From: Spirochaetales bacterium
Lineage (GTDB): Bacteria > Spirochaetota > Spirochaetia > DSM-2461
Length of the DNA: 36,543 bases
Reading direction: 5' to 3'
NCBI GenBank assembly: GCA_028532905.1
Contig: JAQQAM010000287.1
Coordinates: 1 to 36,543 of the forward strand
In this document: piece by piece, positions 11,237-28,683 of the stretch
Layout: each line of letters begins with the position of its first letter
Numbering within the stretch: position 1 is the first letter of the stretch
Translations under genes and position numbers: made by a program
Notes under the pieces: model-generated
What the model saw: the letters and a program-made list of their open reading frames with translations, nothing else
Database searches by the model: none
What the model was told of the DNA's origin: nothing

Positions 11237-14200
11237 TCAGAAACTCATTTCCAGTTCCAGTCCCAGTTCGTACCCATTCCGGAACAGATAATCGGTTCCG
11301 CCGATTCCCAGGGCCATCCACCCTTTCAAGGAACCCAGACCGGTGAGAACCAGTTTGGATTCATGTCTCAGGATCACATCAAAGCTTGTATTTTCAGGTT
11401 CTTCTTCATCAAAATACCCGGTGAACACCAGCTTTTCCTCGTGTTCCATTCTGTTGGGTTTCATTATCAGATAGTCGAAGAAGGGAAATTTAAAATAGGG
11501 ATTTTCCGGTTCAAACCAGCGCAGGATCAGCTGGAAATCATCCTGATAGTATTCACCGGTCCACTTCCGGGTAAAGCGGTTGTCCAGGACAAACTCCCAG
11601 TTCTTCTCTCCGGCCAGAGTCAGATAGTTCTGATAGACCAGTTCTTCGGCTTCGGGAGTCCAGAGTTCCGAGCCCCCCAGTATAAACTGCAGAGAACTGG
11701 AAATCTCATCGGTGGCATAGAAATCAAACAGAGGATACTGCCCCCAGGCTCCGAAAAGGTTCACAGCAGACTGAAGAAGCTGGAAATTCCAGTCGTGCTG
11801 GATATAAACGGAATCCTGTTTCTTGTAGTACTGTCTTTCTATCCCGATATCCACACCCGATGGAATAAACAGATCCCTCAGGTTGGAGGTGGAAAGACGG
11901 TTCAGCTGCACATACACTTCGGGTTTATAGATCGATTCATCCGTCAGAGACAGGGTGTCTTCAAAATCATCCAGATTATGCTGCCCGAATATCTCGTAGA
12001 AGGGTATGAAACTGGTCAGGGGGAACTGGGAACCCAGAACTGTAAAAAGGGTACTCAGATCATCCCCGAATCCATCATATTTATCGGGGTAGACCGTCTG
12101 GGTCAGATCCCGTCTGTATCCGGGAGTAATACTCCAGGGCATTGTGGGATTTTGAATCATCAGGGGGAAGGAGAGGTCCGAATACCAGTTGTTTTCATGC
12201 TGCCAGCTCAGCTCCTGCTGCGCCGTATACCCCATTCGTGTTTCCAGGGAGAAACCCAGGGGCAGGGGATTCCTCTGGGTCCTCAGACTGCTGAGCCCCT
12301 CTCTGCTGGAAATTCCCTCTTCCACGGGGACCAGATATTTGAAGTCCTGACTCCAGTCGGTAAAATATTGTCCCGAATCCGACTCCCAGTCCGATGTCTG
12401 GTACAGATCGGCACTGACCGAAAGGCTGCTGTTCTGTCCTGTATTCAGGTTGATAAAGCCTCCCCAGCCCTGGGTGATCTCTTCCAGAGACGCCGAACTG
12501 CTGCTGTCAGCCTGAAGGGTTATAAAGCGGAAAGGACTGAGGTGCAGTACATTCTCCCGGGTCATAAAGTCATTTCCCGGCTGAAAGGAGCGGGAGTAGC
12601 TGTCGGAGATCCAGCCGAAACGGGACTGGGCGGGAATCCGGACAAGGTGGCCTCCCGCCATATAGGGTTCCCCTCCCGACCAGACCACTTCAAAGTCACC
12701 CTGCAGCCGGACATTCATCAGGTCTGCACCGCTGGACAGCTGATTTTCAATCCGGTTGGCATTCCTCAGGAAATAGGAGTCTGTTGTCACGCCGTAGTAG
12801 TTGAAACGGCTGGAGATATCAAAATTGGCCACAAGAGGAAAACCGCCGCGGGTTTCGGCAATGGTGCCGGGACGGCTGTATTCCACAAGGGTCTCCAGGG
12901 AGGTGCCTGTGGAGAAATTGGGTTCGGAGAAATGGAGTTCGTCCACCAGCATGGTTCCGGAAGGCACGCCGGTCCGGGTCAGATGGAAGCGGGTGAACTC
13001 TGTTGTGTCCTGATCGATGCTCAAGGCGGTGACATTGGATGACCCCGAGAACCGGGCGGTTCCGCTGCGGAGGTCTACGGTCAGTTTTTCCCATCCTGTA
13101 GAACCGGGAGAGTAGTCCACAACAATACCCCGCCCCCGGCTGTCTGTAACAGAGAAGCTTCCCGAACCCTGGGTATTTTCATTTTTCACATACAGCGCCA
13201 GCTCGGCATAATCGGTTACAGGCACAGAGTTGAACCAGGCTGTTCCTTTTATCACATCGTCATCCGCCAGTTCGGCGGCACTGTCGAAATCATCTCCCCA
13301 GGACATCTCCAGAACTTTCTGATCCTCTCCTTCGGGATGAAATATGGTCATCACTTCCGGAAAGGCCTGAGCCAGTTCATAATCGGTGATCTCCCGGAGG
13401 TTCACATTGTCTGAGGGCTGTTCCTGACCGGCGGCACTGGTCACAGAAATATTGAGGGGAGACCCGTTGGCACTGATCCCGCCGATCAGCAGGTCCCCGT
13501 AGGAATTACCCCCGCTGGAAGAAACCACAAAGCGGAGGGAGCGGACCCGGCTCAGCCTCTGGCGTTCAGATTCAGTGAGAAGGATCTCCACCTCTTCCCA
13601 GCGCCCCTGGGCAGAAGGAATCCGGGAACTCAGGTTTTTTGTCACCAGAAATCGCGCATCACCCTTATCTACGGTTCCGTTATCATCCAGATCTTCGGCT
13701 TCGCCGTTGTCCCCGATCCTCAGTTCCAGCTGAAGATTATCGTCTCCCAGGTTCTGCCGGTAGAGGTAGAACTTCAGGGAGCTGTAGCCGGAAAAGTCTA
13801 TGGGGCCGGTTTCTGCGGGCAGATAGTCTCCCGAGGACCATTCCCCGTTGCCCAGATCATAGCTCATCACCATGACCCGGCTGGAAAAGGGATCATTCGT
13901 CAGGGCCGCCGCGATGGAGGGGCCCTCCCGGCTGCTGTCGATGGAGCTGCCGTTCCAGGTGTAGGGGTTAAGGTAGGTCTGGCCGGCGGTATTGGTGGAC
14001 ATGTAGTTCCGGTACAGGAGTTTTTCCCGGGAATTCGGATTGTATGATCCTGAGTCCGGGGTCAGTTCTCGTTCCGCCGGAACCAGCTGGTCTTCTCCCA
14101 CAGAGAAAGAGAAACCCTCTTTATCCATCCCCAGAAGCCGCAGATTCCCGGATGTGTCGGCGGTGGCAATATTGACCGAGCCGTTGACCATGGCATTCAG

Positions 14201-16021
14201 GTTCTCCGACTCATAAAACATGGTGGCTGCCAGTTCCACAAGACCCGGGCTCTCTCCGGCCTCTTCGGTCATCTGATCTTCCGGGAGGGTCCAGCGCAGA
14301 GATTCGGCCAGTTCCAGAGTGGTTCTTTCGTTGAGAAAGAGTCTGTTCCCCTGAGCCATAAAAAGATCGCCCCCTCCCAGGCCGGTGCTCTCGGTCCGGT
14401 AGGTTATGATAATCCGGTCTTCGGGAAAGATGTACCGGCTGAAGGTTATCTCTCCTGTATCGTAATTGACCTGTACCGATTTATCCTCCACTCCGTTCAC
14501 ATAAACCGTTACAGAACCTTTAATAAGATTGGTTCCCAGATAGTAATTGTTGCTGTCCTGTTTCACAGCCAGCAGAATTTCCCGGGACACCTTGTTGCCG
14601 TCGGTTTCCCGTCCCGGACCGTAGACCTCGGGATTCTCCAGGGAGAAGGGGATTCTGTTGATGGCATCCCGGCTGTCGGTATTCTCAATCACAACCGTCA
14701 GGGTTCTATTGTCATTTTCATCCGTATTGGTCAGATACACATAGTTCAGATCTTCATCGATCTGCCGGCTGGCATTCACCAGATAGATCAGGGTCCGCCA
14801 GCTTTCTGCAGGAAGGTTTGTGTAAAAATAGTAGCGGTTGTACATCTGAAAGGAGCTGAACTCCCCCGGATTGTGAACCAGAAGGGCTTCATTTCCGTCA
14901 ATCTCCACCAGGGAGGTCTCCCTGAAGTCCCGGCCGGTCTGATCATAGGGATTCACTTCATCCCAGGAGAAGGGGAGGAGGGGGCGGGATGAATCCGGAC
15001 GTCCCCTTGCATCGGTATCCATAATAAAGTCTTCGGCAATAGAGGGTGAGCCCACTGGGGTGCCGCTCTTCCGGTAGAAGATAAGGACCCGCCCTTCCGG
15101 TGCCTCCACCAGATTGACAAACCCCTTTGTCAGGTCCGCACTGTAGAGAATGCTCCTTTTGGTATAGCGTCTGCCGTCGCTGCCGGTGAGTTCGCCGGTA
15201 GAATCCTCCTGATAGACCGTCAGGTCGGAAATATTGGTATTGGGTAGGATAAAGCGCTGTCCTTCTGCAAAGGAGGGGAGCTCAATGGTCTCTTCATCCA
15301 CCTCGTACTCACCGATAAAGATCTTTTCCTGCAGTTCCGTGGGGTCGTAGCGGATCATCATCTCATGCTCGGAGTTTCTGGTTTCAAAGCGGGCGCTCAC
15401 ACCGGGGGTATTGTATTTGGGACTGGACACATCTATCCCTTCATACTCTCCGATGCCTATTTCAGAATTACCGATGCGAACTTCCTTCAGGGCGGTGGTC
15501 TCATCCCCCACATAGCCCATGGCATAGGTGTTCTTGTCGTTTCCTTCGGTAAATGAAGTTTCGATGAAATAGTGATTCAGCAGAAGGACGGAGAGGAAAA
15601 AGTCCGGTTCCTGGGAGAACTCGAAACCTTCCTGCAGCCCCGGAAAGGCAGAGGGGAACACAAAGCCGTCTTTCCCGTTCTCAAAGCCCGTCCCGTAGGT
15701 CAGGCCGAAGCGCCAGTACCCTTCCCAGAAAATATCGGTTTCCACACTCCCCATATTCATATCAAAGATATGTTTCGGAGCTTCTTCTCCCTCATTTCTG
15801 CTCAGGGGATAGGCTTTTTTTTCATTGTCATCAGAACTGTCTGCTTCCGGATTATCACTGCCGGCATTCTCTGCATCAGAATCCTCAGCCCCGCTACCCT
15901 CATCACCCGTCCCGGGGCTTTCGCTTTCGGTCGAATTTTCCTGAGCCGAAATCTGCTGCGGTACAGGAACCATGAGGAAGATCAAAAGGAATATGGATAA
16001 AATATATGTCTTACACTTCAT
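11237..16021 (-). CDS. Large outer-membrane protein resembling SprA-type translocons
   Basis: This 1594-residue protein has a signal peptide (FLLIFLMVPVPQQISAQ) and then an acidic low-complexity linker (~27-70). The first half is beta-rich and includes a segment near residue 518 of the form VNYDTGEITF...PEDRIIITYR. Two carbohydrate-binding-like beta-sandwich segments start near residues 738 (DFSGYSSLKFYLYR) and 936 (DYAELALYVKN). The first is followed by an EF-hand-like DLDDNGTVDKGD, and the second ends at DELHFSEPNF. From ~1040 to the end, alternating polar/aromatic strands suggest a large barrel, ending in Phe as outer-membrane substrates do. This order recalls SprA of the Bacteroidota type 9 secretion system, which is larger (~2400 residues). 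The match is by pattern only; an ordinary large envelope protein is the alternative. mutL follows on the same strand. Confidence 0.6.
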   Translation of the reverse strand: MKCKTYILSIFLLIFLMVPVPQQISAQENSTESESPGTGDEGSGAEDSDAENAGSDNPEADSSDDNEKKAYPLSRNEGEEAPKHIFDMNMGSVETDIFWEGYWRFGLTYGTGFENGKDGFVFPSAFPGLQEGFEFSQEPDFFLSVLLLNHYFIETSFTEGNDKNTYAMGYVGDETTALKEVRIGNSEIGIGEYEGIDVSSPKYNTPGVSARFETRNSEHEMMIRYDPTELQEKIFIGEYEVDEETIELPSFAEGQRFILPNTNISDLTVYQEDSTGELTGSDGRRYTKRSILYSADLTKGFVNLVEAPEGRVLIFYRKSGTPVGSPSIAEDFIMDTDARGRPDSSRPLLPFSWDEVNPYDQTGRDFRETSLVEIDGNEALLVHNPGEFSSFQMYNRYYFYTNLPAESWRTLIYLVNASRQIDEDLNYVYLTNTDENDNRTLTVVIENTDSRDAINRIPFSLENPEVYGPGRETDGNKVSREILLAVKQDSNNYYLGTNLIKGSVTVYVNGVEDKSVQVNYDTGEITFSRYIFPEDRIIITYRTESTGLGGGDLFMAQGNRLFLNERTTLELAESLRWTLPEDQMTEEAGESPGLVELAATMFYESENLNAMVNGSVNIATADTSGNLRLLGMDKEGFSFSVGEDQLVPAERELTPDSGSYNPNSREKLLYRNYMSTNTAGQTYLNPYTWNGSSIDSSREGPSIAAALTNDPFSSRVMVMSYDLGNGEWSSGDYLPAETGPIDFSGYSSLKFYLYRQNLGDDNLQLELRIGDNGEAEDLDDNGTVDKGDARFLVTKNLSSRIPSAQGRWEEVEILLTESERQRLSRVRSLRFVVSSSGGNSYGDLLIGGISANGSPLNISVTSAAGQEQPSDNVNLREITDYELAQAFPEVMTIFHPEGEDQKVLEMSWGDDFDSAAELADDDVIKGTAWFNSVPVTDYAELALYVKNENTQGSGSFSVTDSRGRGIVVDYSPGSTGWEKLTVDLRSGTARFSGSSNVTALSIDQDTTEFTRFHLTRTGVPSGTMLVDELHFSEPNFSTGTSLETLVEYSRPGTIAETRGGFPLVANFDISSRFNYYGVTTDSYFLRNANRIENQLSSGADLMNVRLQGDFEVVWSGGEPYMAGGHLVRIPAQSRFGWISDSYSRSFQPGNDFMTRENVLHLSPFRFITLQADSSSSASLEEITQGWGGFINLNTGQNSSLSVSADLYQTSDWESDSGQYFTDWSQDFKYLVPVEEGISSREGLSSLRTQRNPLPLGFSLETRMGYTAQQELSWQHENNWYSDLSFPLMIQNPTMPWSITPGYRRDLTQTVYPDKYDGFGDDLSTLFTVLGSQFPLTSFIPFYEIFGQHNLDDFEDTLSLTDESIYKPEVYVQLNRLSTSNLRDLFIPSGVDIGIERQYYKKQDSVYIQHDWNFQLLQSAVNLFGAWGQYPLFDFYATDEISSSLQFILGGSELWTPEAEELVYQNYLTLAGEKNWEFVLDNRFTRKWTGEYYQDDFQLILRWFEPENPYFKFPFFDYLIMKPNRMEHEEKLVFTGYFDEEEPENTSFDVILRHESKLVLTGLGSLKGWMALGIGGTDYLFRNGYELGLELEMSF

Positions 16022-16075: not shown

Positions 16076-17026
16076 ATGATTTATCAAAACCCTATGGGAC
16101 AGCACATTATGGAAGATGACAAAGCAAAAGCGCTCCAGTTTCTCAGTAGACTCATGCAGAATCCCAGTTTAAATGGTTTTTCTGCACTGCAGAGGGAAGA
16201 CCAGCTTCTCCAGTTTTTCGTTATTAATGAGGAAAAACTCAAGCCCACACTCTCATCCCCTGCTTACTTTAACGGTTGGTCCTGGCAGGACATTAATAAA
16301 ATCATGACGGATACCCTGTATGATATCACAAACAGGGAGATTCTTCCGCAGATAGAGTCAGAAATCTTTGACAGAACCAATTATGCCTATGTTTCCTTTA
16401 TGAAACTCACTCCCCCTTCGGAGAGTATGAAAAAGCAGTTTATGACCATGATCAGAAAACTGCTGATGGTTCCCGCAGGCCGGCAGAGTCTGGCAGGCCC
16501 CCTGACGGCGCTCCGGACAGGAGTGCTCAAAAAATATGTGATGCTGGGATTCGAACGGCAAAAATACATCAATTTTGAACTGACAAAAGTGCAGCGCCTC
16601 CGAATGCCTCAGGAAGAAATTTACCATCTGCTCAAGACAACCATCCTGATCAGACCTCTGGTGGTTCTCTTTGCTCCCGGAGGTCCCGCACAGGGGGCCA
16701 ATCAGGCCCTGAGTCCCAATTACGCGGAAAAAGTGACCAAACAGATCAACAAGTTTATCCCCGGTCTGCCGGAAGAAATTATCCGGGGAGGCGTTCACAG
16801 CACCATGGGCTTTCAGGACAATCCCACCCTGGAGGCCACAGCCCGGATGGCCGGTATTTTCACATCCCGCTGTTCTCAGCTGAAAGAGGGAATGAAAATT
16901 GACAGAGGCGCTGCCGCATCGGATCAGAGCTGGTTCAACGTGGCAAGGCGAAACTACAAATACTACGGATACGATTTTGACATGCTCACCGAGCTGTACA
17001 ACATATCTGCTGAGAATGGATGGTGA
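16076..17026 (+). CDS. Conserved-looking cytoplasmic protein of unknown function
   Basis: This 316-residue protein has no signal peptide, membrane helix or motif I can recognise. It looks soluble and mostly helical, with scattered Trp and Pro residues and a Gly/Pro/Ala stretch in the middle (LFAPGGPAQGANQALSP, residues ~200-216). Its last codons overlap the start of the voltage-sensor gene by 7 nt, implying stoichiometric synthesis and a physical or regulatory partnership with that membrane protein. The start is uncertain: ATG at 16076 has no ribosome binding site but follows a -10-like box; ATG at 16109 has a weak GGGA. Both are in frame. Confidence 0.7.
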   Translation: MIYQNPMGQHIMEDDKAKALQFLSRLMQNPSLNGFSALQREDQLLQFFVINEEKLKPTLSSPAYFNGWSWQDINKIMTDTLYDITNREILPQIESEIFDRTNYAYVSFMKLTPPSESMKKQFMTMIRKLLMVPAGRQSLAGPLTALRTGVLKKYVMLGFERQKYINFELTKVQRLRMPQEEIYHLLKTTILIRPLVVLFAPGGPAQGANQALSPNYAEKVTKQINKFIPGLPEEIIRGGVHSTMGFQDNPTLEATARMAGIFTSRCSQLKEGMKIDRGAAASDQSWFNVARRNYKYYGYDFDMLTELYNISAENGW

Positions 17027-18141
17027 TACCCATGAAAAAGAGTAAAGACCTGATAGAAAATTTCATCCTCTTTGTGATCCTTCTGGTTCTCATTCAGACC
17101 TTTGTTGAAGACCTTGCCGTCCTGCTGGGATGGTCCTGGTCTGTAAGAAAAGCTCTTATCTTCAGCGGTTTCGGTTTTGACCTGTTTTTCAGTATCGAGT
17201 TCATTACCCGTTATTTCAATTCCCTGAGAAAGGGAAAAGCCCTGAAATACATGCTGCAGGAACGGGGATGGGTCGATCTGATTGCCTCCCTGCCGCTGCT
17301 CTTTCTGAGCTCCGGTCCAGGGGTGATTGCCCTGCTCCAGGGCACAGCTTTTATGAGTGCTGCGGGTATGCTGAACATCCTTAAGGTTGTGAAAACAGTC
17401 AGAATTGCCCGGATACTCCGTCTTCTCAGGCTCCTTAAGGTGTTCAAGAAGATCAAATTCGTCAATTCCGTTATGGCTCAGCGTCATCTGACACGGATTA
17501 TCACCACGGTGATCTCCTCCTTTGTCATTGCACTGACCGCGGCATCCTTTATTCTAGCCTTTGTACCTGTCAGCGATATTGAGCAGGATTTTGTGGAAAA
17601 ACACAGTGTCATGGCCGCAACGGCGGAACGTCTGTATGAAAACGGCAACAGCGGTCTGCTGAAGGAGTTTGACGCCTACAGCTCTGTTCTTATCATGCGC
17701 ACCAGTGAGGGTACAGTGTACAGCCGCTACGACAACGATTTTTACACTCAGTGGTTCGGCCCCTCAGATTACGGATATGTCCGTTCGGGTGATCTGGAAC
17801 TGTTCTACTCTCTGAAGCCCCTGTATGCCACGGAGTCAAAGAATAATCTGCTGATTTTCGTTGCCATTCTCTCCATGCTGATTATTCTGATGGTTGCCTA
17901 TACACCCCATTTTGCCCTGACTGTGACAGATCCTGTGAATATCATGGTAAACGGCATGTCCGATTCCTCCTATAATCTTGAGGTTCTGATTCCCGAAAAC
18001 CTGCAGGAGGACGGCATCTACAAGCTGGCCCGTCAGTACAACGAAGAGTATCTGCCCATGAAAGCCAGAAACAATGATGCTCCCGGTCAGGGCGGCGGAC
18101 TGGCTCTCAAGGTGGATAATATTGAGGATCTGTTCAAGTAA
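17020..18141 (+). CDS. Voltage-sensor domain protein with extracytoplasmic and HAMP-like domains, no ion pore
   Basis: This 373-residue membrane protein begins like a voltage-gated channel. S1 is at ~12-35. S2 (~45-66) has the FxxIE acidic site at E60 and R64. S3 has WVDLIASLP with D86. S4 has a positive charge at every third position: K122, K125, R128, R131, R134, R137, K140 and K143. A fifth helix (~158-183) leads to a ~95-residue extracytoplasmic segment (~184-275). Helix six is at ~276-296, followed by a HAMP-like stretch (DPVNIMVNGM...DGIYKLARQYNEEYL, ~304-344). No pore loop or TxGYG-type filter lies between helices five and six. It therefore looks like a voltage or membrane-potential sensor that signals through HAMP to another protein. 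It overlaps the 16076 gene. ATG at 17032 is an alternative start. Confidence 0.75.
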   Translation: MVIPMKKSKDLIENFILFVILLVLIQTFVEDLAVLLGWSWSVRKALIFSGFGFDLFFSIEFITRYFNSLRKGKALKYMLQERGWVDLIASLPLLFLSSGPGVIALLQGTAFMSAAGMLNILKVVKTVRIARILRLLRLLKVFKKIKFVNSVMAQRHLTRIITTVISSFVIALTAASFILAFVPVSDIEQDFVEKHSVMAATAERLYENGNSGLLKEFDAYSSVLIMRTSEGTVYSRYDNDFYTQWFGPSDYGYVRSGDLELFYSLKPLYATESKNNLLIFVAILSMLIILMVAYTPHFALTVTDPVNIMVNGMSDSSYNLEVLIPENLQEDGIYKLARQYNEEYLPMKARNNDAPGQGGGLALKVDNIEDLFK

Positions 18142-18167
18142 AGGGCGCTGAGTCCTGAACGCAGCAG

Positions 18168-18197
18168 AGCTCCGGGGTCCCCGGAGCTTTTCTTTTA
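18168..18197 (+). terminator. Rho-independent terminator after the voltage-sensor operon
   Basis: A perfect GC-rich palindrome (AGCTCCGGG, 3-base loop, CCCGGAGCT) is followed by TTTCTTTTAT. It is 26 bases after the stop at 18141 and abuts the stop of the convergent HD gene. The reverse side has no T-run, so it mainly serves the plus-strand operon. Confidence 0.85.
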
Positions 18198-19460
18198 TAC
18201 AAAGGGGTCCAGATCCAGTTCCGGGACTTTTTCGGCCACAGAAGAGGGGACAATCACCCTGATATGCCGGAGGGTCTCTGTAAATCCCTGCACAACCGGC
18301 CGGCTGAAGACAGTAGGAGAGCCGATAAAGGGTTTGTTACCGTCCTTATCCAGGATAGGCACATCCACTTCAAAGGAGATCTTGGAGGGAATATCTATTA
18401 CCAGATGATTCACCGGCAGCAGACCGGGATGGCTTTTTTCGATAATCTGGGCCAGCTTGGTTTCATACCGGTTCCGGTAGTCCAGATCCATCAGATCCCT
18501 GTGCAGTTCATTTCCCTCGTCAAAGGGTGTCTGAGAGATGGTCTTGTATTTTCGGGGGGTCTCGGACTCCCGTACCAGGGAAGCTATCTCTTCGGGAGTC
18601 TCCATCATCCTTCTGAAAAACTCGTTATCATCCATTCCGTACAGGTCTTCCGCCTGGAAATGCTTCTGTGCCAGCCCCAGGTAAACAGCCTTTTTAACAA
18701 GGGCCGTGGAAATACGCACATCAATATGCCAGTACACCGTCTTGTACATCAGGTATTTTGAAAACAGTATATTTTCTACAGCCGTAACACCCTTGGTGGT
18801 CAGGCAGATTCCTGTTTCTGTGGGTCTGATCTGGGAAATAACAAAATCGATATCCTGCACCCCATAGGGGACGCCGCAGAAGTAGGCATCCCGGTTCAGA
18901 TAGTCCAGTTTATCCGGGTCCAGTACTCCGCTGAGGATGTTCCGGAAGAAAATAAGCTCTTTGTTGCCTTTATCGGGAATACCCGTATCAATGATGGCTG
19001 CCGTGAGTTCCGGATCCCCGCCAATATCATTCTCGATGATGGAGGCTATCCCCGATTCCCTGATGATCTTTCCTGAAAGTATCTCATGGTCAGCCAGAGG
19101 CAGCTCCATAAAGGAGTGGGCATGGGGAAAATGGCCGATATCGTGGAGAAATGAGGCACAGAGAAATGACTTGACCCCTTTTAGAGTCAGGTGGGAAGGA
19201 CAGCGTTCTGAGAAGAGAATCGATTTGAGAATCCGTCTGGACAGATAAAACACACCCAGCGAGTGATTCAGTCTTGTATGGCTGGCTCCCGGGTAGACCA
19301 GGCTGGCCGGTCCCAGCTGGCTGATTCTGCCCAGTTTCTGAAATTCCCTGTTGTACATGATCTTTCTTAAACCCGGACTCAGGTAGATGTGTTTCCAAAG
19401 GGGATCTCTCACCGCCACTGTATAGTCTTCGCTCAAATGTCTGATGATTTCTTCTTTCAT
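18195..19460 (-). CDS. HD-domain phosphohydrolase, SAMHD1/dGTPase-like
   Basis: HD-superfamily enzymes of this type hydrolyse nucleotides such as dNTPs or related phosphoesters with metal-bound His and Asp. The ~421-residue product has the ordered signature: an early His in SHTRLNHSLGVFYLSRRI, the HD pair in FLHDIGHFPHAHS (~residues 103-115) and the distal Asp in VLDPDKLDYLNRD (~180). It is cytoplasmic. Two starts are possible: ATG at 19460, 7 bases after a TATACT box with no ribosome binding site, or TTG at 19478 with GAGG only 4 bases away. I chose the ATG because a TTGCCG-18-TATACT promoter would place the TSS at about 19460. The true substrate is not readable from sequence. Confidence 0.8.
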   Translation of the reverse strand: MKEEIIRHLSEDYTVAVRDPLWKHIYLSPGLRKIMYNREFQKLGRISQLGPASLVYPGASHTRLNHSLGVFYLSRRILKSILFSERCPSHLTLKGVKSFLCASFLHDIGHFPHAHSFMELPLADHEILSGKIIRESGIASIIENDIGGDPELTAAIIDTGIPDKGNKELIFFRNILSGVLDPDKLDYLNRDAYFCGVPYGVQDIDFVISQIRPTETGICLTTKGVTAVENILFSKYLMYKTVYWHIDVRISTALVKKAVYLGLAQKHFQAEDLYGMDDNEFFRRMMETPEEIASLVRESETPRKYKTISQTPFDEGNELHRDLMDLDYRNRYETKLAQIIEKSHPGLLPVNHLVIDIPSKISFEVDVPILDKDGNKPFIGSPTVFSRPVVQGFTETLRHIRVIVPSSVAEKVPELDLDPFV

Positions 19461-19467
19461 GGAAAAC

Positions 19468-19497
19468 AGTATACACAAAATGCCTCTTTGACGGCAA
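19468..19497 (-). promoter_or_regulatory. Promoter of the HD phosphohydrolase gene, TTGCCG-18-TATACT
   Basis: On the minus strand, TTGCCG (19497-19492) is separated by 18 bases from TATACT (19473-19468). Only 7 bases separate the -10 box from ATG 19460, so the mRNA would be nearly or wholly leaderless. The region also overlaps a plus-strand TTGACG (19488-19493) for the divergent lipoprotein gene. Confidence 0.5.
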
Positions 19498-26841: not shown

Positions 26842-28683
26842 ATGAAATTGAAATATCAATTCCTTCTTCCTATACTCCTGACTGCTGTGATAACCATGAC
26901 AGCTCTTGCTGTTGTCACATTTACCTCAACCAGAAAAGAAATAAAGTACATTGTGGGCAACAGTTTGGTGCAGATTACAGACGCTTTGTACCGGTCAACA
27001 ACCGATTTTGCAGAAACATCCATGAGTGAAATTGAGATTATGGGTCTGAACAGAGATTTTGCCCAGGTGTATACAGAATCCTCTCAGGCTGTTTCTCTTG
27101 CCAGCTCTCTGCTCCAGGAGGCCATGGAGATCTGGCCCCATTTTGAGCTGCTGGCTCTCACTGACAATAAGGGGCTTGTGATTGCCTCCAGTGACAGCAC
27201 CCATATCGGTTCTTTGGATCTGAAAGACCGGGAATATTTCCGGGAATCCATGAAAGGGAACACATTTTCTTCTGACATCATCATCAGCCGGGTCTCGTCA
27301 GAGCCGGTAATCGTCGTTTCCACTCCTGTGTATGCTGAGGGAGCGGTTCAGGGAGTGCTTTTAGGATCTTTGAATCTCGGGGCTTTTATTGAAACACATA
27401 TCAGCCCTGTTGTTGTGGGGCATGAAGGATATGCCTATATGATGGACGATAAAGGGATTATTTTTGCTCATCCCAATAAAGATCTGATTCTGAAGGAAGA
27501 TCTGTCAAAGTATGATTTCGGAAGGAAGATGCTGGACACAAAAGACGGTATGCTTCCCTATACCTACAAGGGTGTTCTGAAAACAGTAAACTACAGAACT
27601 GTTGCTTCAAAAGGATGGACCATTGCCGTGACAGCCAATGACAGCGACATCTATGCGGGAGTATTCAGAATTCTGAGACTTTCCATAATCTCTACCCTTG
27701 TGTGTATTCTGCTGCTGACCGTGATAATTACCTATTTTGTTCAGTCCATTGTGAATCCTATCAGCCGGGTCATTCAGTTCGCCCATGTTATGTCGGATGG
27801 TGATTTTACAAACCGTCTTGATTCGAAACTTCTGAATCGGAAGGATGAAGTGGGAAATCTGATTACCGCTTTGGACAGAATGCAGAGACAGATTACAGAC
27901 ATTGTACTGGAGATCCGTTCTGCTGTTGTGAATGTGGCCACAGGCAGTCAGCAGCTGAGTGCAACGGCCATGCAGATGTCCCAGGGAGCCACGGAGCAGG
28001 CGTCTTCTGCCGAGGAGGTTTCATCCACAATGGAGCAGATCAGTTCCAATGTCAGGCAGACGGCGCAGAATGCGGTAGAGACCAGTAAGATTTCACAGAA
28101 GTCGGCTACCCATTCCTCCAGCAGTGGGACAGCGGTTAAAGAGGCGGTTGATGCAATGTATCTGATTTCAGAGAAGATCGGTGTTATTGATGAGATCTCC
28201 CGCAATACCAATATGCTGGCTCTCAATGCGGCTATTGAAGCCGCCAGGGCAGGGGAGGCGGGAAAAGGCTTCGCTGTTGTGGCTTCAGAAGTCAAGAAGC
28301 TGTCTGAGAACAGCCAGTCTGCTGCAAAGGAAATTATCGAACTGAGCACCAGCAGTGTAGAGACGGCCCGCCGGGCGGGAGACCTGTTGAACTCCATGCT
28401 CCCGGACATCCAGCATACAGCCAGCCTGATTCAGGAAATCAGCCATTCCAGTACCGAGCAAAGTGTGGGCATGGAGCAGATCAATATCGCCATTTCCCAG
28501 CTGGACCGGGTTATTCAGCAGAATGCTTCCGCTTCGGAAGAGATGGCTTCCATGTCGGAAGAATTGTCCAGCCAGGCCGCCAATCTGAAGCAGTCCATCG
28601 GGTTTTTCAAACTGGAAGAGGGGGATCTGGAAGCTGGTTCTGAATCAAAGAATGAAGATCCCCTTGAGCTGGAGCTGGCCTGA
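26842..28683 (+). CDS. Methyl-accepting chemotaxis protein with double-Cache sensor
   Basis: The 613-residue receptor has TM1 (~7-28) and a large periplasmic region (~30-275) of dCache type ([26 protein letters not shown], and later [16 protein letters not shown]). TM2 (~280-303) and a HAMP domain (~304-356: [12 protein letters not shown]...[13 protein letters not shown]) follow, then a cytoplasmic helical hairpin. The tip reads [33 protein letters not shown], the CheA/CheW-binding core, with Arg-Asn where many receptors have Ala-Gln. It has no C-terminal CheR-binding pentapeptide. The ligand is unknown; dCache sensors often bind amino acids or other small metabolites. A strong AAGGAG ribosome binding site is present. 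No che gene is nearby. Convergent with the GLUG lipoprotein gene, three bases apart. Confidence 0.95.

Follow-up and report, generated by a model that had tools for sequence, protein, structure and literature searches.

A pore-less voltage-sensor protein with a HAMP-like module, encoded beside a partner of an uncharacterised family in Spirochaetota: a putative voltage-sensing receptor

Our analysis of a 36,543-nucleotide stretch of DNA from a Spirochaetales bacterium (contig JAQQAM010000287.1; the whole stretch is referred to here as the window) identified two overlapping genes, here called A and B, whose products form an unusual pair. Protein B has an S1-S4 voltage-sensor domain that is followed by neither a pore nor a catalytic domain, but by two further transmembrane helices with an extracytoplasmic domain between them, a HAMP-like module and a short C-terminal tail. 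This domain order, the conservation of the sensor residues and of the HAMP-like module, the pairing with A and the co-occurrence of the tail with A are observed. From them we infer, as a probable reading that is far from settled, that B is a voltage-sensing, HAMP-coupled receptor with protein A as its output.

The A-B gene pair and its distribution

The list of open reading frames confirmed both genes at the positions given in a preliminary description of this DNA, with gene A (316 residues) overlapping gene B (373 residues) by 7 nt. The features of the unit are given below with their basis in brackets.

16076..17026, + strand: gene A, all-helical soluble protein of an uncharacterised family (open reading frame, AlphaFold2, family searches)
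17020..18141, + strand: gene B, pore-less voltage-sensor-domain receptor, as proposed (open reading frame, AlphaFold2, Ion_trans in homologues)
17035..17127, + strand: S1, residues 6-36 (AlphaFold2 helix)
17137..17229, + strand: S2, residues 40-70, with D54, F57 and E60, the FxxE charge-transfer centre (alignment, AlphaFold2)
17266..17340, + strand: S3, residues 83-107, with D86 (alignment, AlphaFold2)
17359..17451, + strand: S4, residues 114-144, with K122, K125, R128, R131, R134, R137, K140 and K143 (alignment, AlphaFold2)
17470..17562, + strand: fifth transmembrane helix of B (TM5), residues 151-181 (AlphaFold2)
17578..17811, + strand: extracytoplasmic alpha/beta domain of B, residues 187-264, Cache-like, variable and dispensable (AlphaFold2, Foldseek match to WalK, entropy, absence at loci L082 and L113)
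17815..17961, + strand: sixth transmembrane helix (TM6) running into HAMP AS1, residues 266-314 (AlphaFold2)
17890..18078, + strand: HAMP-like module of B, about residues 291-353, with AS2 at 332-353 (hhalign against 30 HAMP domains)
18079..18138, + strand: C-terminal tail of B, residues 354-373, a short amphipathic acidic motif with the family form LSxDDLL (tail-length comparison of A-linked and A-less B)
18166..18190, + strand: terminator-like hairpin closing the A-B unit (consensus match: 11 pairs, then TCTTTT)

The unit is flanked on one side by a large divergent gene (11237-16021, - strand) and on the other by a convergent HD-domain gene (18195-19478, - strand). The former encodes a protein of 1594 residues with a signal-peptide-like start, for which no Pfam match was found, and, as cluster 13, it is conserved beside A-B in a number of related genomes. 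Elsewhere in the window, the large open reading frame 26842-28683 has a HAMP domain (29 bits).

A profile search of 393 Spirochaetota genomes found A in 121 and B in 121, with both in 104, A alone in 17 and B alone in 17, a co-occurrence with a Fisher p of 9e-58 before any phylogenetic correction. The survey therefore bears out the conservation of the pair, whose absence would have counted as a refutation of the original proposal. The arrangement of the 70 adjacent pairs is uniform in that A always comes first and lies on the same strand; 43 of the pairs overlap and in 66 the gap is at most 20 nt. Beyond A-B the neighbourhoods vary between families, and in most loci the sole constant neighbour of B is A. 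A contig scan with one lone protein as query led to a single close spirochaete relative, a tblastn search against plasmids gave no match, and models of anti-phage defence systems matched neither A nor B.

The voltage-sensor domain and the lack of a pore

The standard charge-transfer apparatus of voltage sensors comprises an FxxE motif in S2, an acid in S3 and a charge at every third residue of S4. The sequence of B holds the S2 acid E60, the S3 acid D86 and the eight S4 charges spaced by three that had been ascribed to it, S4 being LKVVKTVRIARILRLLRLLKVFKK, with eight basic residues in a period of three from K122 to K143. AlphaFold2 (49 homologues; pLDDT 88.1, pTM 0.82) predicted helices at residues 6-36, 40-70, 83-107 and 114-144, which correspond to S1-S4, followed by helices at 151-181, 266-314 and 332-353 and a short terminal helix at 365-372. 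The best PDB match of this model in VIA-align was the sensor domain of Ci-VSP (4g7y_S; Z 12.2, 124 residues, rmsd 3.4), after which came the sensor domains of Nav, Cav and Kv channels with Z of 10-12. Ion_trans was the sole Pfam match of the B protein of the window, at a sub-threshold 22 bits, and the same model matched 44 of 49 B homologues at E<=0.1.

The residues on which voltage sensing depends in this kind of domain are also those that B conserves. D54, F57, E60 and R137 do not vary among 49 homologues and are at least nearly invariant across 49-55, D86, R128, R131, R134 and K140 are at least 90% conserved among 49, and the S4 charge repeat across the family is R..R..R..R..K with Leu or Ile between; most lineages retain the sensor pattern DFEYD plus KKRRRRK. 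Because the sensor residues are this close to invariant and the gene pair is conserved, we do not consider the sensor of B a chance resemblance, and the fold, the Ion_trans matches and the conserved residues together uphold its description as a canonical S1-S4 domain.

What follows the sensor is not a channel. No P-loop helix or selectivity filter was found between TM5 and TM6 of B, either in the AlphaFold2 model or in the sequence, and the finding of a standard pore with a filter at this place, which would have refuted the preliminary description, did not occur. The order claimed there (fifth helix, extracytoplasmic domain, sixth helix, no pore loop or filter) held; the length of about 95 residues given for the domain did not, as the alpha/beta domain of the model lies at about 187-264 and comprises about 80 residues. 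The lack of a pore is further supported by lineage f44 (L082 and L113), in which only about five aligned residues are left between the post-sensor helices, such that the extracytoplasmic domain is absent, while the sensor residues, all seven S4 charges, the HAMP-like module and A are still present. Foldseek gave the kinase WalK as the top match to the B model (prob 0.99), and since the E value was 0.019 and the TM score low, this is a resemblance rather than proof of relationship.

The sensor is not retained in every lineage. F57, E60, D86 and the S4 charges, near-invariant in most lineages, are lost in the Borrelia-like (28% GC) and Brachyspira-like (27% GC) genomes, labels that rest on genome size, GC and synteny. 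Since A and B are both retained there although the S2/S4 sensor residues have been lost, the pair must function without canonical voltage sensing, at least in those genomes. In Borrelia-like genomes (L085:6404-9487, - strand), A, B, a HAD phosphatase gene and a gene for a small protein together make up one overlapping unit of four genes, and this unit sits opposite a flaA-cheA-cheX-response regulator cluster; we take the pair to be BB0674/BB0675 in B. burgdorferi. Brachyspira-like genomes (L153:3014-4797) have a shortened A and a B without the S2/S4 charge pattern.

These lineages lend weight to one alternative, namely that the sensor-like domain is a mere membrane scaffold and that B is an ordinary HAMP receptor whose real input is received by the extracytoplasmic Cache-like domain or is envelope stress, as Borrelia-like and Brachyspira-like B proteins still have TM5, the extracytoplasmic domain, TM6 and HAMP. 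In the other lineages, however, the sensor residues rank with the best-conserved parts of B and the extracytoplasmic domain is the least conserved: mean column entropy is 1.46-2.15 bits in the four sensor helices and 2.13 bits in HAMP, compared with 3.15 bits in the extracytoplasmic domain, where not one column is conserved. Lineage f44 has even dropped this domain and retained the S4 charges and A. We therefore regard a pure scaffold as unlikely for the family. In lineages that retain the sensor residues, a ligand is a less likely input than membrane potential, because no part of B varies more than the extracytoplasmic domain and f44 lacks it; for the Borrelia-like and Brachyspira-like groups we judge the opposite, a ligand being the likelier input, because their sensor residues are gone. 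The earlier suggestion that B reads potential and/or a ligand is thus narrowed in favour of potential in one group and turned around in the other, with voltage sensing itself remaining an inference.

A second alternative is that B conducts protons or other ions in a voltage-gated manner, with the sensor itself as the conduit and HAMP and A as regulators. Like B, Hv1/VSOP is an S1-S4 protein without a pore domain, and it conducts protons; isolated voltage-sensor domains can leak ions (PMC10651576), and B has acidic residues at both ends of S1. The latter (E13 and E30/D31) are the only conserved S1 acids and lie near the helix ends, and their match to the selectivity-filter Asp of Hv1 is not fixed. 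A 2023 review (PMC10377628) finds no Hv protein in prokaryotes and is the source of the Hv S4 motif RxWRxxR; the S4 of B has neither this motif nor its Trp, and behind its sensor B runs on into the receptor module with HAMP. The extra transmembrane helices, HAMP and the paired cytosolic gene are likewise foreign to Hv, and we judge an Hv1-like role to be quite improbable.

According to the same 2023 review (PMC10377628), every voltage sensor known from prokaryotes is accompanied by a pore domain. KvAP, NaChBac and SthK share with B a sensor domain of the VIC superfamily, but B is without their pore loop, filter and pore-lining helix pair. In family f42, a K+ channel with a cyclic-nucleotide domain and a TTVGYGD-type filter is encoded directly 3' of B at L076:9908-12305, L080:9349-11031 and L094:6114-7454 (- strand), and at some f42 loci a Na/Ca exchanger gene directly follows B. 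The channels illustrate a contrast, as they have a real filter and a cyclic-nucleotide domain and B has neither. Their adjacency is what speaks for B being an electrically silent regulatory subunit or degenerate member of a K+ channel complex, the explanation to which we give least credit, since such adjacency is limited to one family and A alone is constant in most loci, TM5-TM6 lacks a P-loop, which in f44 would not even fit, and HAMP and Cache-like parts are not features of channel subunits.

The HAMP-like module, the tail and protein A

When residues 285-358 of B were aligned by hhalign with 30 HAMP domains from the same genome as the window, the match had a prob of 92.3 and p of 5.5e-7 and was in register through DEI..LA..FN of AS2; control windows of B outside the segment had a prob of 4.5 or less. 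The segment fits the two-helix AS1-connector-AS2 layout after a transmembrane helix, with DE(I)xxLAxxxN at AS2. The Pfam HAMP model matched none of 49 B homologues even at E 0.1, so on sequence evidence the segment is a divergent HAMP at best. With that qualification, the HAMP-like segment placed at residues 304-344 in the preliminary description is supported by the profile comparison and the fold. Its companion claim, that nothing enzymatic lies behind HAMP, also proved correct: neither Pfam nor AlphaFold2 revealed a kinase, chemoreceptor, cyclase or other catalytic domain in B or its homologues, no PTEN-like phosphatase domain is present behind the sensor, and after TM6 there is just HAMP and a tail of about 20 residues.

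The tail of B is associated with the presence of A. Among complete, A-linked B proteins (those scoring >100 bits), the tail after K348 has at least 19 residues in 49 of 49 and usually ends in a motif like LSxDDLL. Sixteen HAMP-bearing B proteins have no adjacent A; in nine of these the tail is 10-13 residues, and in the other seven it is longer. One of those seven is from a genome with A elsewhere, five are from genus g96 and in the last the tail lacks the motif. Three genomes (G039, G054 and G068) have one B of each kind, A-linked with the tail and short-tailed. These counts are not phylogenetically independent, and the five g96 genomes, in which B is tailed and A was not detected (B being at a contig end in one), count against our main reading. 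A 260-residue gene upstream of B in g96 was considered as a hidden A and rejected, as it has no profile similarity to A.

Pore-less sensors also occur in other settings. In family f17 and some relatives, a paralogous B without the A-linked tail is the middle gene of a three-gene unit, caspase - B - polysaccharide deacetylase (L095:158-3413; L111:5275-8541; L112:4762-8064; L096:6457-9654; L108:4889-8250, - strand). The caspase (PF00656) has kept its His and Cys motifs, GHG and DxCxSG, and has a lipobox-like N-terminus; the gene had been considered as a divergent A, a candidacy that its identity as a caspase ruled out. This unit suggests that the same sensor is put to use on the envelope side. 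A further pore-less protein of the voltage-sensor type, encoded without A beside hflX- and rfaE-like genes (L097:7229-8512, - strand; L098:7735-9201), has both an extracytoplasmic domain and a long cytoplasmic tail. A B-like protein with the sensor, two transmembrane helices and an extracytoplasmic domain, and with no HAMP and no A, is encoded at L166:4273-5178, L168:3948-4874 and L169:3636-4553.

Protein A was predicted by AlphaFold2 to be all helical (pLDDT 92.2, pTM 0.89), and its C-terminal motif is DRGAxxxDxSWF...YGxDxxxLxELYxIAxxxxW. Searches of Pfam, NCBIfam and PADLOC identified no family above the cut-offs; DUF7821 of Pfam reached 18 bits in just one of 51 homologues, which we took as chance. 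In VIA-align, most of the top 38 rows for the A model were HD/PDE proteins, the best being DvhD (Z 9.3), with Bd1817 and PA4781 (both Z 8.5), YhaM, GppA and PDE4 also present. Values of Z below about 13 can arise by chance with helical models such as this one, and Foldseek found no significant PDB match for A. Homology in sequence to HD-GYP/HDOD was rejected because the hhalign p values of 0.11-0.32 fell within column-shuffle controls, and for that reason we claim only a resemblance in fold. A differs from proteins of the HD superfamily, including HD-GYP, in having no conserved His/Asp metal ligands, as no His is conserved at 60% or more among 50 homologues. With moderate confidence, and on the basis of a predicted structure, A may be described as having an HD-like fold without an active site. 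The partner was previously called unknown, which remains right as to family; it is not wholly featureless, given this fold.

A proposed mechanism and its significance

How a voltage-sensing B might signal to A can be outlined, each step being inferred. The S4 gating charges of B would move with membrane voltage, and the short S4-TM5 linker would transmit the shift to the TM-(Cache-like)-TM-HAMP module, presumably a dimer and of a type that histidine kinases and chemoreceptors also use. The HAMP switch, in a direction that can only be surmised, would expose or retract AS2 and the acidic C-terminal tail, and this change may capture, release or remodel cytosolic A. Binding between A and B is itself an inference, without binding data or a model of the complex. 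Potentially, A, in appearance an HD-fold protein without catalytic activity, would then carry the signal onward to a target that has not been identified.

Voltage sensors without a pore or with a non-channel output are known from eukaryotes, in Ci-VSP, Hv1, sNHE and TMEM266. The sea squirt protein Ci-VSP, the source of the best structural match to the sensor of B, likewise has a pore-less S1-S4 domain and passes voltage to a non-channel output. In Ci-VSP a PTEN-like phosphatase, covalently attached, serves as that output. B lacks the enzyme but has two more transmembrane helices, the extracytoplasmic domain, a HAMP-like module and a partner that is a protein in its own right. With WalK-type histidine kinases and MCP chemoreceptors, B has in common the order of transmembrane helix, extracytoplasmic alpha/beta domain, transmembrane helix and HAMP, but in B a voltage sensor precedes this module and neither a kinase nor a chemoreceptor signalling domain follows it. 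We found no such system in the open-access literature on BB0674/BB0675 or on voltage sensors joined to HAMP or histidine kinases; as only open-access papers were covered, this is not proof of absence.

It is evenly balanced, in our estimation, whether A and B represent a new class of prokaryotic receptor, in which a pore-less sensor acts via HAMP on an HD-like, catalytically dead output in trans. Such a class would be Spirochaetota-wide and modular, with a tail-less paralogue that is associated with a caspase lipoprotein instead. If true, this would be the first known bacterial system in which membrane potential is converted directly to a protein signal and no ions are conducted. The pair offers a possible bacterial counterpart of the voltage-sensing phosphatases, and voltage indicators could perhaps be built on it as a scaffold. 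The output of the pair may also matter in Borrelia-like genomes, despite the degenerate sensor, because the pair survives there beside the flaA-cheA-cheX-response regulator cluster. These findings touch on a broader question, namely whether membrane potential carries information that bacteria read, and by means of which protein; A-B, with just two proteins, allows a direct test of the idea of voltage as a signal in a small system. Bacteria may be able to convert membrane voltage to a signal without a channel.
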